From assembly GCF_900403705.1 (NCBI RefSeq), contig NZ_OUNR01000012.1:620001-684000 (forward strand): 64,000 bases of DNA, given 5' to 3'. Below are positions 29,087-32,927 of this stretch, piece by piece (within the stretch, counting starts at the first letter, position 1; every line of letters starts with the position of its first letter). The position numbers and the translations under genes were made by a program. The notes under the pieces were generated by a model. The model was not told the origin of the DNA. It saw nothing but the letters and a program-made list of their open reading frames with translations, and did no database searches. This DNA comes from Nitrospira lenta. Its GTDB lineage: Bacteria; Nitrospirota; Nitrospiria; Nitrospirales; Nitrospiraceae.

Positions 29087-30274
29087 TTAGCAGCACCCGC
29101 CCGTCGGCGCGCAATTCACGGCGTCCCCGCCCACGGGCTGGCTGGCGCGATTGAGAATGGCAAAGTGCGGCGCATAGCCATCCGTTTCAAGGACCGTGAG
29201 CGTCTTCGAACAGATTTCAAGGGGCTCGCCGCGGCGGAACACATGGTGATCATCATCGTGCGCTTCCAGGAACGGGCCGGCTAAGAGCGCGTAGTCGCCT
29301 TTCCAGGTACAGGGAACCTGTTCAGGAAACACGGCGGTCCATCGCGGATCCTCGCGGTTGAGCCACTGGGGAGTCTCGGAGAACATAAACAGCGACGCGA
29401 AGGGCGGCCGACTCAGCAATGCCGCCAGTTCCGGCGTCAGCGGCTGTGGAATGCCGCGCATGTACGTGGTGCCTCGTTCATCGAGCACGCGGCTGAAGGG
29501 GCCACGGAGGGTGGCATATCGTGCCGAGTGCACCGCTGTTTCAGCGGGAAGTTTGTAGCCGGTCAATGTGACCGAGAAAAAATGAATGCCATCGATCCGT
29601 TGCCAGGGGGATGACGTGACCAGATGTAGGCCGACAAACCCGGCCTCGGTCATCCCGGCCATGTACTCAGTCAACGTCAGAGCGCCGGATAAACAGTCGC
29701 CCCATTTCTCCGCATCATGCACCAGGTATTGCGGCACGGGTTGATCGGCGACGATGTCGGAAATGGTGAAACGTCCGCCCGGCTTAGAGACGCGGAACAT
29801 CTCGCGAAAGACCTTCCGCTTGTCGGGAGCCAGATTGATCACGCAGTTGGAAATAATCAGGTCGATAGTGTCGTCAGCGACGGGCATGGCGTCGGCCATC
29901 CCTTTGCGGAACTCGACATTAGATGCGGGATAGCCGAGATTGGCAGCGACGACTGCAGCATTCTTTCGCGCAATGTCGAGCATCGTATCGGTCATGTCGA
30001 TGCCGATCACCTGTCCAGTGGGGCCGACGAGACGCGAGGCCTCGAAACAGTCGATCCCGCCGCCTGACCCGATGTCCAGGACCGTCTCTCCGGCACTAAC
30101 GGTATTCAGTCCGGCCGGAGTGCCGCACCCATACGAAATCTTAAGGACCTCTTCCGGGATAAACGATTTGAGGTTCGCCATGTCATAGCTGGTCGGGCAG
30201 CACATCTGCTCACCAGTGCTGGCGGCCTTGGCGTAACGGTCACTGACTTTTTTCTCAATTTCATCTATCGGCAT
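29087..30274 (-). CDS. arsM: arsenite S-adenosylmethionine methyltransferase ArsM
   Basis: 395 residues. A Rossmann methyltransferase core (TVLDIGSGGGIDCFEASR, VIGIDMTDTML) with As(III)-binding Cys including C50 in SYGCGTPAG, C144 in IISNCVINL and C194 in KWGDCLSGALT; the 50-residue gap between the last two matches known ArsM enzymes. The C-terminal extension of about 120 residues is the ArsM-linked domain, and the protein ends in a Cys-rich GGCC. It methylates arsenite stepwise to volatile or soluble methylarsenicals. It is first of arsM-arsS; no ArsR gene is adjacent. Confidence 0.95.
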   Translation of the reverse strand: MPIDEIEKKVSDRYAKAASTGEQMCCPTSYDMANLKSFIPEEVLKISYGCGTPAGLNTVSAGETVLDIGSGGGIDCFEASRLVGPTGQVIGIDMTDTMLDIARKNAAVVAANLGYPASNVEFRKGMADAMPVADDTIDLIISNCVINLAPDKRKVFREMFRVSKPGGRFTISDIVADQPVPQYLVHDAEKWGDCLSGALTLTEYMAGMTEAGFVGLHLVTSSPWQRIDGIHFFSVTLTGYKLPAETAVHSARYATLRGPFSRVLDERGTTYMRGIPQPLTPELAALLSRPPFASLFMFSETPQWLNREDPRWTAVFPEQVPCTWKGDYALLAGPFLEAHDDDHHVFRRGEPLEICSKTLTVLETDGYAPHFAILNRASQPVGGDAVNCAPTGGCC

Positions 30275-30360: not shown

Positions 30361-30564
30361 ATGCGACGGCCGGTGTCCGTAGCCTGCAGGATGATACAAG
30401 GATCGGTGTCATGCCGATCCCCAGACGAACCTGTGACAAATGGTTTCGCCGTTCCAACTCATTGAAACAGCAGCGGTCAAGGCGTATGGTTCGCAAACAG
30501 TGCCTGCGAGTTATGCAGGCAGATATTGGCGCATCCGGCTCTTATGCGGATCGGCCTAAATATT

Positions 30565-30571
30565 GTTAGGT
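30565..30571 (+). other. GTTRRRY core, possible cassette boundary
   Basis: GTTAGGT matches the integron recombination core GTTRRRY and lies 16 bases before the GTG of the next gene, where a cassette boundary would be expected. A matching folded attC arm upstream was not found, so chance is possible. Confidence 0.3.
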
Positions 30572-30586
30572 CTCACGGGAGGGCAC

Positions 30587-31084
30587 GTGGAAGGCGCTGC
30601 TTGGGGATTGATTGGAACAGTCGTAGGCGTACTTGCCAGCATTGGTACGACTTGGATGACGAACCTACATGCTGAGTCACTCCAGCGGCACCGCGCTCAA
30701 GAAGAACGCGATCAGAGAGCGTCGGCCTTCCAGCAACAGACGCTACTTGATTTACAGGAAGCCATTCACGACTGTCTGCGCTTGATCACAAAAGGTCATG
30801 AGGAAGACCGACGATCCGCGAGCAAGAGCGGTGCGTGGGGAGCGACCTTGCTTGACGCAGACCTGGATGAGAGCATCCGTCTCGCCAATAGGCGAGTCGG
30901 AATACTTATTGAGCGAGTTGCGGACGACAACTTGAGATTAAAGATAAAGGAATTAATGTTTAGGGCGAATCAGATTCTGAATTCCGACTCGGAACTTGAG
31001 GCCGGAAAAATGCTGGTACAGACGTACGTTACTGCAGAGGAAACTCTGCAGAGCGTCGGTACAACCCTGCGCAGGCATTACTAG
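30587..31084 (+). CDS. hypothetical membrane-anchored helical protein (possible cassette gene)
   Basis: 165 residues, function not recognised. One N-terminal membrane helix (AAWGLIGTVVGVLASIGTTW, about residues 4-23) is followed by a charged, fully helical body (QRHRAQEERDQRASAFQQQT, then helices to the end) that looks like a coiled-coil or four-helix stalk in the cytosol. GTG 30587 has GGAGG 4 bases upstream; a longer TTG-started form is less likely. The stop is 2 bases before the attC-like element. The compact arrangement (core, gene, folded site) is that of an integron cassette. Confidence 0.75.
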   Translation: MEGAAWGLIGTVVGVLASIGTTWMTNLHAESLQRHRAQEERDQRASAFQQQTLLDLQEAIHDCLRLITKGHEEDRRSASKSGAWGATLLDADLDESIRLANRRVGILIERVADDNLRLKIKELMFRANQILNSDSELEAGKMLVQTYVTAEETLQSVGTTLRRHY

Positions 31085-31086
31085 GG

Positions 31087-31158
31087 GGCCTGTGAGACCT
31101 AGCCAGCCGTTGGAGCGGACGCTTCCGCGCTCTGGCGTCTCTCACGGTACGTTAGGCC
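31087..31158 (+). other. attC-like recombination site
   Basis: A 72-base imperfect stem-loop. Pairs: GGCCT/AGGCC (31087-31091, 31154-31158), GTGAGA/TCTCAC (31092-31097, 31140-31145), GCCAG/CTGGC (31102-31106, 31132-31136) and GAGCG/CGCTC (31113-31117, 31128-31132), with unpaired bases on both arms. The right end is GTTAGGC (31151-31157), a perfect GTTRRRY core. The left box is GCCTGTG rather than RYYYAAC, so the site is either degenerate or not a true attC. Confidence 0.5.
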
Positions 31159-31183
31159 GCGCAAGGAAATCGCTTCTCAGACC

Positions 31184-32227
31184 ATGGATCTCTTTACTCC
31201 AGTTATTCCATCTCTGAAGCAGCATCCGATCTTTCAGATGCTGCTCCAGGAAACGTTTGCACCGGAACGTCGTGAACTTAGCTCTTGGGCTGACGGTTTT
31301 CGCGACCGTGATGGCAAGTTTGTTCAGGAGTTTCAAAGCACCTTTGAGTCTGGATTATGGGAGCTTTACCTGCACGCCTCCACGAAGGTCTGGGGTTTTC
31401 AGCTTGACCAGGGATCCGCCTCTCCGGACTTCGTTGTCACCGCTCCGGCTCCGCTATGCATTGAAGCCACCATCGCAGCACCAGCAAGCGGTGGTAAACC
31501 GGCCTTTGGATACGACTCATCCGACATCCCGGACGACTTCAGCCAATTCAACGCCGAAGCCTCCATTCGCATATGCAATAGCTTTACGTCGAAGGTAAGG
31601 CGCTATCGCGATTACTACGCCACTCTTCCGCACGTAACGAATCGTCCCTTCATAGTGGCCATCGCCGCGTTCGACCGACCGCTGGCGCACTTCGCTGCTG
31701 GCCGGTCGATCATAGCTGCCATGTACGGCCTGTATCACGACGAGGCCGCTACTCCGCCAGACGCAGATTGTGTGGTGAGCTACAACGTCTCCGCTGCAAC
31801 TAAGTCCGAGACAGTTGATGTGCCGCTGGGACTGTTCTGTGAGCCAACCTATCCTGAGGTCTCCGCCGTGATCTACAGCTCGTTGGCTACCTGGGGTAAG
31901 GTACGCGCGCTCGCTGATAACCCAGCTGCCAAGACCATCTACCAGACTTTCCATCCCAAAGAGGGCGACCTTCGCCCCGAGGTTCGAAGCACTCCCAAGA
32001 AGAATTACAACGAGCACTTGCTCGATGGCCTGTTTGTGCTCCACAACCCATTTGCTCACTTCCCAATTCCTGAGGGAGTCCTCTCCCATCCTCGACTGGC
32101 TGAGATTCGTGTCGCGCTAGATGGTGAGTTAGTCACGAAGGCGCCAGACGACTTTCTACTACTGCGCATACTGTGGTCTGTTCACGAGCGAGAGAACAAA
32201 AAGGGGACAGGCAGAATAAATCAGTAG
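31184..32227 (+). CDS. hypothetical protein, possible PD-(D/E)xK-like nuclease fold (cassette gene)
   Basis: 347 residues without a signal or membrane helix. A central block (SGLWELYLHASTKVWGF, then SPDFVVTAPAPLCIEATIAAP) has a helix, a PDF strand and an IEA strand spaced as in PD-(D/E)xK nucleases, but the final Lys is replaced by Thr/Ala, as in ExA variants. Similar proteins are known to me as cassette-borne proteins with misleading names such as glycosaminoglycan attachment protein. ATG 31184 lies 26 bases after the attC-like site; AAGGAAA is about 14 bases upstream. Function is unknown. Confidence 0.75.
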   Translation: MDLFTPVIPSLKQHPIFQMLLQETFAPERRELSSWADGFRDRDGKFVQEFQSTFESGLWELYLHASTKVWGFQLDQGSASPDFVVTAPAPLCIEATIAAPASGGKPAFGYDSSDIPDDFSQFNAEASIRICNSFTSKVRRYRDYYATLPHVTNRPFIVAIAAFDRPLAHFAAGRSIIAAMYGLYHDEAATPPDADCVVSYNVSAATKSETVDVPLGLFCEPTYPEVSAVIYSSLATWGKVRALADNPAAKTIYQTFHPKEGDLRPEVRSTPKKNYNEHLLDGLFVLHNPFAHFPIPEGVLSHPRLAEIRVALDGELVTKAPDDFLLLRILWSVHERENKKGTGRINQ

Positions 32228-32284
32228 ACGCACGGGTGAAGCACAGAGCGCTGCCTTACAGGCAAAGATGTCCGCCGCAGCAGC

Positions 32285-32330: not shown

Positions 32331-32927
32331 CTACATCCGACTCCGTGTTTGGAAATATTCGTCGTAGCGGTGGATGAAATCTTTTTGTGCCACCGGGGTG
32401 TGGCAGGCGCGGCACTTGGTGAAATCTTCCATCAGCGGTTTGTTCGTCGCATCGTAGGCCGCATATGCCCAGTCGCCGTTTTTCAGATTCTCCGGCAGCT
32501 TATCGCCCCAACCCTGTTCCTTCCCCATCACGAACACCTTCGCCAGATCGCCCTTCGCCGGTTTCCCATCCATGCCGGTCATGAGCTTGTCGCCATCCAT
32601 CTTGGCTTTGTAAATCTCCATCACCATGACCGTGCCGTTCGGAAAGTTCTGTCCTGCCGATGCTCTTGCGCCGGTCGGGTTGATGTAGATGTCGCGAACC
32701 TGCTTCGCTTCGCCTTTCGGAATGTCCGTCAGGAACTTTGGCCAAGATTTGTAGTCGGCAGGGAGTGGAAGGCTGCCGTCCGGGCCTGCCGAGGTTGGCA
32801 TGGCAGACGCCATACCGGAGGGTTTGTCTGCGGCCGCTTTACCGCCCGCTGGTTCTATGGTGTTGCAGCCGCTCAGCGTCAGCAGCAATCCGCCGATGAC
32901 GAGATAGGATGCGATGGGTTGTCTCAT
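32331..32927 (-). CDS. cytochrome P460 family lipoprotein
   Basis: 198 residues. A lipoprotein signal ends in LTLSGC (Cys21). A Pro/Ala/Gly-rich linker precedes the P460 domain, with YKSWPKF, INPTG, FPNGTVMVMEIYKAK, GDWAYAAYD and the heme-binding CRACH (C172, C175, H176). P460 cytochromes bind a c-type heme cross-linked to the protein, in some ammonia oxidisers turning hydroxylamine to N2O; others bind NO. ATG 32927 has AGGAGG 8 bases upstream. It is monocistronic here. The substrate cannot be named. Confidence 0.9.
   Translation of the reverse strand: MRQPIASYLVIGGLLLTLSGCNTIEPAGGKAAADKPSGMASAMPTSAGPDGSLPLPADYKSWPKFLTDIPKGEAKQVRDIYINPTGARASAGQNFPNGTVMVMEIYKAKMDGDKLMTGMDGKPAKGDLAKVFVMGKEQGWGDKLPENLKNGDWAYAAYDATNKPLMEDFTKCRACHTPVAQKDFIHRYDEYFQTRSRM

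Follow-up and report, generated by a model that had tools for sequence, protein, structure and literature searches.

The window analysed here (the whole 64-kb stretch, G000:C12:620001-684000) carries, between a methyltransferase gene and a cytochrome P460 gene, an attI-like element followed by a first gene cassette (cassette 1), its attC site and a second cassette (cassette 2) with gene 2. A homologue of the left flanking methyltransferase was present in 71 of the 79 genus genomes. Scanning of the 64-kb window with Rfam gave no family at the gathering score, and no tRNA that could have been the insertion target was present in it. The features of the locus (window coordinates) were:

29087-30274, minus strand: left flanking methyltransferase gene, a conserved neighbour (Pfam Methyltransf_31, 5e-33)
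30367-30393, plus strand: relic of the intI 3' end, at the expected place (identical to the 3' end of the G058:C62 intI at 21 of 27 bases)
30394-30570, plus strand: attI site by homology, ending at the cleavage point (1.5e-45 with nhmmer against the attI profile)
30462-30490, plus strand: promoter-like hexamers TTGAAA-17-TATGGT (candidate Pc, from the sequence pattern), reading into the cassettes
30554-30571, plus strand: inverted boxes GCCTAAA / GTTAGGT, seen in the sequence; homology with relatives ends here
30566-31151, plus strand: cassette 1, with complementary ends that form a 14-bp stem in the circle
30587-31084, plus strand: gene 1 (in cassette 1), 165 aa from a GTG after GGGAGGG; the longest ORF starts at 30563
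31090-31157, plus strand: attC of cassette 1, with R'' ACCTAGC (31097-31103) and R' GTTAGGC (31151-31157)
31152-32283, plus strand: cassette 2; right end uncertain (32199 to 32283), as flank homology starts at 32199-32283 depending on the relative
31184-32227, plus strand: gene 2, PD-T7-5-type anti-phage protein and predicted PD-(D/E)XK nuclease (PADLOC)
32246-32259, plus strand: possible degenerate R'' of cassette 2 (10 of 14 bases, the best in 2 kb, at chance level)
32331-32927, minus strand: right flanking cytochrome P460 gene, a conserved neighbour (Pfam Cytochrome_P460, 1.8e-26)

A preliminary description of this DNA had proposed a pair of integron-like cassettes without an integrase, with a second core just upstream of gene 1. 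This core was found as GTTAGGT at 30565-30571, directly adjoining, and proved to be the right box of a 177-nt repeat that the description had overlooked; the cleavage point (G|TT) lies between 30565 and 30566. By homology with the element behind the intI of G068:C9, the repeat is an attI: it lies immediately 3' of that intact intI and directly 3' of the truncated intI of G058:C62, in the same direction in both cases. In this layout, intI reads towards attI. In the remaining IntI lineages of this genus, a different site of their own lies within ~200 bases past the stop codon (nine loci inspected; the site was not located in L049 and L053).

Matches to attI were obtained in 62 of the 79 genus genomes (up to 11 copies in one genome) and, at family level, in 112 of 175 genomes belonging to 7 of 22 genera. 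Comparison of the locus with its own genome by BLAST gave four copies in G000 (one in the window, one on contig C17 and two on C18), each with different genes downstream; the two C18 copies retain mostly the last ~60 bases and have no intI scrap. For the detailed analysis of attI, an nhmmer profile built from 40 copies (the window copy among them) was run on 83 long loci, taken mostly from the upper part of the genus list together with loci of interest. The 97 hits reaching profile position 165 or beyond were kept, hits ending earlier were dropped and one duplicate was removed, which gave a non-random sample of 96 copies from 73 loci and 41 genomes. Conservation in these copies peaked at CATTGAAA, at GCGTATTGT and in the final 30 bases, and dropped right after G|TT. 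The promoter-like pattern TTGA-N18..20-TAT occupied one position in 70 of the 96 copies, compared with 3 of 269 control segments.

Two observations were made on the surroundings of the repeat. The sequence CGACCCAAAGCAGAAGTACACGACCGACCGCTATCAGAGGGG precedes attI in L026, L028, L036, L037, L039, L044 and L082, and the sequence farther upstream differs for each copy. In L082 (G072:C17:1-8951), L130, L137 and L139, tandem arrays have the order attI, cassette, RF, attI, cassette, RF, such that behind each cassette come the right side of one attI and then the left side of the next. RF was considered as a separate mobile element and rejected, because it is the native right side of attI (cf. the empty site L104).

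Integron cassettes start with TT and the remainder of the right box, and terminate in the reverse complement of this start. Cassette 1 starts with GTTAGGTCTCACGG (30565), and the reverse complement CTGTGAGACCTAGC is found at 31090-31103, from six bases 3' of the gene 1 stop, with 12 of 14 Watson-Crick pairs plus 2 G-T pairs. As controls, 12 pairs were attained anywhere in 2800 nt by 18 of 3000 random GTT-starts and by 2 of 95 starts from other loci. Since a cassette start predicts its own end, the left box is ACCTAGC (31097-31103) and not GCCTGTG at 31087, as had been proposed. The right-end core was correctly placed: GTTAGGC occupies 31151-31157, 26 bases 5' of the gene start at 31184, and gene 1 stops at 31084. 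The bare GTTAGGC core was discarded as evidence (3 occurrences in the window versus 3.6 expected by chance). When folded as the excised circle, the attC had a dG of -19.5 (z -3.3); its 60-base linear form in the array was unremarkable (z -0.4). An attC with an almost identical inner sequence ends another cassette in another genome (L128). Cassette 1 thus combines what defines a gene cassette: an ORF with an attC, G|TT bounds and complementary ends. Over the whole attI sample, the first nine cassette bases had a perfect reverse complement 0.2-3 kb downstream at 17 of 96 sites; with cassette starts swapped between sites, a perfect nine-base end was obtained in 1 of 285 cases.

Cassette 2 starts with GTTAGGCCGC at 31151. 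No clean attC was found for it in the 2 kb examined, and this attC is either missing or degenerate. The sequence AAAAGGGGACAGGCAGAATAA (32199-32220) overlaps the last ten codons of gene 2 and is also present in the right flank of G039 and G022; a motif of this type, with a poorer match, occurs in the right flank of G013.

Neither cassette gene is conserved at this place throughout the relatives: gene 1 had no homologue in the 174 other family genomes, and homologues of gene 2 were found in 3 of the 174 (28-33% identity). Gene 1 gave no match with PADLOC or NCBIfam, and with Pfam a weak LUC7 match below the cut-off. Among the known PD-T7-5 and PD-T7-1 anti-phage proteins, gene 2 matched the PADLOC family PD-T7-5 along its full length (4.9e-100; residues 1-334 on positions 1-342 of the 346-position model), and its best tblastn match among plasmid records was an E. 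coli record (54.7%). The PD-T7-5 family is listed as a PD-(D/E)XK nuclease in the available text of PMC10952713. Residues E60, P81-D82, E94 and K137 were invariant across 15 aligned homologues. The predicted structure (pLDDT 77.8) had a best Z of 6.3, with several restriction enzymes at Z 3-4.5; comparison with the PDB gave no Foldseek match at E<=0.001 and weak VIA-align rows. Judged from its sequence, gene 2 is likely an anti-phage gene of the PD-T7-5 type.

A functional intI is absent beside the attI of the window, where only a 27-bp scrap was found. An equally high score was reached by 0.0008 of shuffles when the position of the scrap was fixed, and the match did not exceed shuffles once the position constraint was removed. 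No IntI above the family cut-off was present in G000, which is 99.98% complete, and the proposal of cassettes without an integrase therefore stands. The best IntI-profile hits of this genome (88.5 bits) were split and skipped model positions 183-238, a pattern that we take to be that of Xer-type recombinases. The locus is more than a mere cluster of attC sites: attI and the intI scrap remain, which makes it an integron minus its integrase.

Loss of intI is widespread beside this repeat. An IntI above the cut-off was found in 8 of the 79 genus genomes, and a match at E<=1e-40 in 12; 8 of these 12 belong to the 62 attI-bearing genomes, and none of the other 54 attI-bearing genomes has a match at this threshold (lists compared by hand). 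Among the 96 attI sites, one had an intact intI within 1.55 kb upstream. Any tblastn piece of intI was detected upstream of 17 (the intact one included), and an intI 3'-end match (p<=0.01 by shuffling) beside 27, including two with intI itself.

The interval between the two flanking genes was compared in relatives. G067 and G050 keep both neighbours with ~195 bp between them and lack attI and the rest of the insertion. In G070, G039 and G038, attI is present at the locus (weaker in G039 and G038) and is followed by other genes, namely a type II methyltransferase in G038; G068 has attI with restriction-type genes. The same interval contains an IetS defence gene in G013 (L071:3918-6440, G013:C56) and a metal-efflux pair in G022 (L072:4820-9775, G022:C117), and no attI was detected in it in these two genomes. 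Because two relatives are empty and others have different genes, the integron platform itself arrived by insertion and the interval is a hotspot.

For comparison of left sides between species, 41 pairs of loci sharing at least 150 nt beyond attI were used. In 37 of the 41 pairs, homology ended no more than 10 nt from the cleavage point, the exceptions being L068/L070, L076/L113, L134/L142 and L136/L137 (the last with a common cassette). A stricter set was made of the 25 pairs whose common left side measured 500 nt or more, minus one pair sharing intI itself; in 22 of these 24 pairs, from ~12 loci, homology ended within 10 nt of the cleavage point, and in 2 it did not. Three comparisons count most. 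The first is an exact pair of an empty and a filled site: G015 and G005 have 1522 bp in common (92.4% identity) up to G|TT, after which G005 has a 726 bp cassette with complementary attC boxes (GCCGAAC/GTTCGGC) and then the right side (82.9% over 70 bp), and G015 continues directly with this native right side, as an empty orphan attI (L104:1449-1818, G015:C8). An IntI match at E<=1e-40 was absent from both genomes. The second is the C17 locus, where G000, G013, G067 and G069 agree from the methyltransferase stop through a short stub to attI and differ beyond it; G013 and G067 conserve the two flanks. In the third, G020 and G054 have the same internal deletion of intI (residues 3-32 joined to 418-435) and diverge from G|TT on, the first gene of G054 encoding a CAP12/Pycsar-type TIR protein. 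The relatives compared have in common the lack of an integrase but differ in their cassettes, which therefore moved later. This sequence pattern suggests that cassettes were exchanged after local integrase loss, presumably by IntI acting in trans, which we infer to be the simplest cause.

In L088 and L114, the first cassette is followed by a 914-bp segment of 97% identity that starts from GTTAGGGGGTCAGGTCTTACA and is transposase-like, and the left flank is merely 85% identical. The 97%-identical stretch farther to the right in G020/G054 had been considered as evidence on the right flank and was rejected, its sequence reading as transposase-like.

We consider it probable that the locus is an integrase-less integron that has kept its attI and a promoter-like sequence, and that such orphan attI sites are loaded and unloaded by IntI in trans. 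An IntI encoded at another place, either by a second integron of the cell or by a plasmid or phage that enters it, would recognise the orphan attI, insert single cassettes there and also remove them, and the attI promoter would express the first cassette immediately. Orphan attI sites would thus be scattered, ready-made docking sites, several with anti-phage genes, here the PD-T7-5-type nuclease. This reading is based on the attI behind an intact intI elsewhere, the intI scrap and the cassettes that begin exactly at G|TT here, and the relatives with a common integrase-less left side and differing cassettes. Against it, no IntI able to act in trans was found in G000, so that the supplier is unseen. 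In part, the cassette differences could reflect the excision of cassettes from longer arrays, preceding a very recent integrase loss elsewhere, or homologous recombination. The lack of a perfect nine-base cassette end at 79 of the 96 attI sites means that some downstream genes are maybe not cassettes, and some of the shared left sides may be repeats rather than orthologous. A wider proposal, which we hold tentatively and think somewhat doubtful, is that Nitrospira keep genome-wide orphan docking sites of attI plus promoter, which an integrase arriving occasionally from outside would load and unload. Single defence genes could then be exchanged at many separate loci and be expressed from the start, with neither a resident integrase nor a long silent array.

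Plain decay, in which full integrons captured their cassettes, lost intI by deletion and have seen no movement since, would explain the intI scraps, internal deletions included, and has precedents in Treponema (PMC3607928) and Xanthomonas (PMC12444791), for which the portions available report loss of intI with retention of cassettes. The finding of the same integrase-less junction in relatives, with different cassettes from the exact cleavage point, speaks against it, and the empty/filled pair G015/G005 strains it, which makes this account unlikely. We give a similarly low probability to a mobile repeat (attI plus promoter, as a gene-less cassette or a MITE-like element) that multiplies attI without intI. 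The copy number of up to 11 per genome and the tandem units of attI, cassette and right side would fit such an element, and functional cassettes ending in attI are described for class 1 and class 2 integrons in the available text of PMC12901181; however, the intI 3'-end matches beside 27 of 96 copies suggest whole integrons, neither terminal repeats nor one left end common to all copies could be established and the sequence upstream is mosaic.

Off-target insertion, in which a distant IntI would use G|TT sites occurring by chance in the genome (attG), as described in the accessible parts of PMC12901181 and PMC12444791, is very improbable: the left side consists of a conserved 177-nt repeat, found behind intI elsewhere and bearing a conserved promoter-like pattern, which refutes this origin for the left side of the window locus, where the insertion site is the attI repeat. 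That a hairpin and two cores came together by chance amid unrelated genes deserves almost no credence, since the chance frequency of the bare core and the unremarkable linear hairpin are outweighed by the complementary cassette ends, the repeat itself, the relatives with an empty locus and the pattern across the family, which refute it.

The locus resembles the CALIN of IntegronFinder in having cassettes without a neighbouring intI, and differs from it in retaining attI and a promoter-like sequence and in having one or few cassettes. The available text of PMC9024848 reports two CALINs for Candidatus Nitrospira inopinata and states that default CALIN calling requires two attC sites and that attI outside class 1 goes undetected, for which latter reason standard tools would overlook such sites. 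The present locus has one clear attC (cassette 1) and one doubtful attC (cassette 2). For CALINs, origins by intI loss or by insertion through an IntI located elsewhere were proposed (PMC8618304, in part available). In the chromosomal integrons of Treponema, intI is transcribed towards attI and in the cassette direction, as here, and one species retained its cassettes after intI loss (PMC3607928, same portion); Treponema has a single locus, whereas here the loci are many and scattered, with few cassettes each. Xanthomonas has CALINs at several loci, with repeated inactivation of intI and cassette clusters away from intI, and the available part of PMC12444791 does not mention an attI repeat at them. 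The delta-attI-type cassettes of class 1 and class 2 integrons place attI between array genes, like the tandem units above (PMC12901181, available text), but these copies sit within such integrons, whereas the present ones are dispersed over chromosomes and nearly all lack an adjoining intI. CALINs, intI loss, the idea of insertion by a distant IntI and attI-ending cassettes were thus already known; dispersed orphan attI sites seem new, as no description of orphan attI sites in Nitrospira, of dispersed attI without intI or of cassette exchange at them after intI loss was found in searches of open-access PMC.

The usual view of an integron is that of a single platform in each genome, with an integrase of its own. 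Should orphan attI sites be used in trans, loss of intI would not stop cassette exchange, and the single cassette of each site would hold the first, expressed position, which would get round the silent cassettes of long arrays. The question of how CALINs arise can also be put to the test, since attI shows the position and empty and filled loci can be compared in pairs.

The attI profile further offers a simple route for seeking defence genes in Nitrospira, by inspecting the sequence directly downstream of its matches. The first ORFs behind the attI sites (76, as 20 of the 96 sites gave no ORF by the rule used) were compared with upstream control ORFs. The 90 control ORFs fell to 81 once duplicates and ORFs already present in the first set had been taken out, and to 75 by hand (2 intI, 3 orthologues of the methyltransferase neighbour, and PycC); the dropped PycC is a PADLOC-matching cassette gene, and its removal lowers the control count. 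At E<=1e-10, 85 PADLOC families were matched among the 76 first ORFs versus 9 among the 75 controls, these being counts of heavily overlapping families (one GajA protein matches more than 30) and not of proteins. Many other ORFs were without a family. When 10 of the longer first ORFs were scanned singly, 5 gave no match, two were assigned to GajA and one each to Drt5, a type II methyltransferase and a type IV restriction enzyme. That integrons can carry defence genes is already known (review PMC12409362, of which part was available, describing two Science 2025 papers on defence cassettes), and the occurrence of such genes at these sites is expected rather than new. Within G000, the C17 attI copy is followed by a gene of no family, one of the two orphan copies on C18 by AbiGi, and the other by a PycTIR-type effector and a PycC cyclase, forming a Pycsar pair (1.8e-103 and 1.9e-96; L014:6964-8619, G000:C18).
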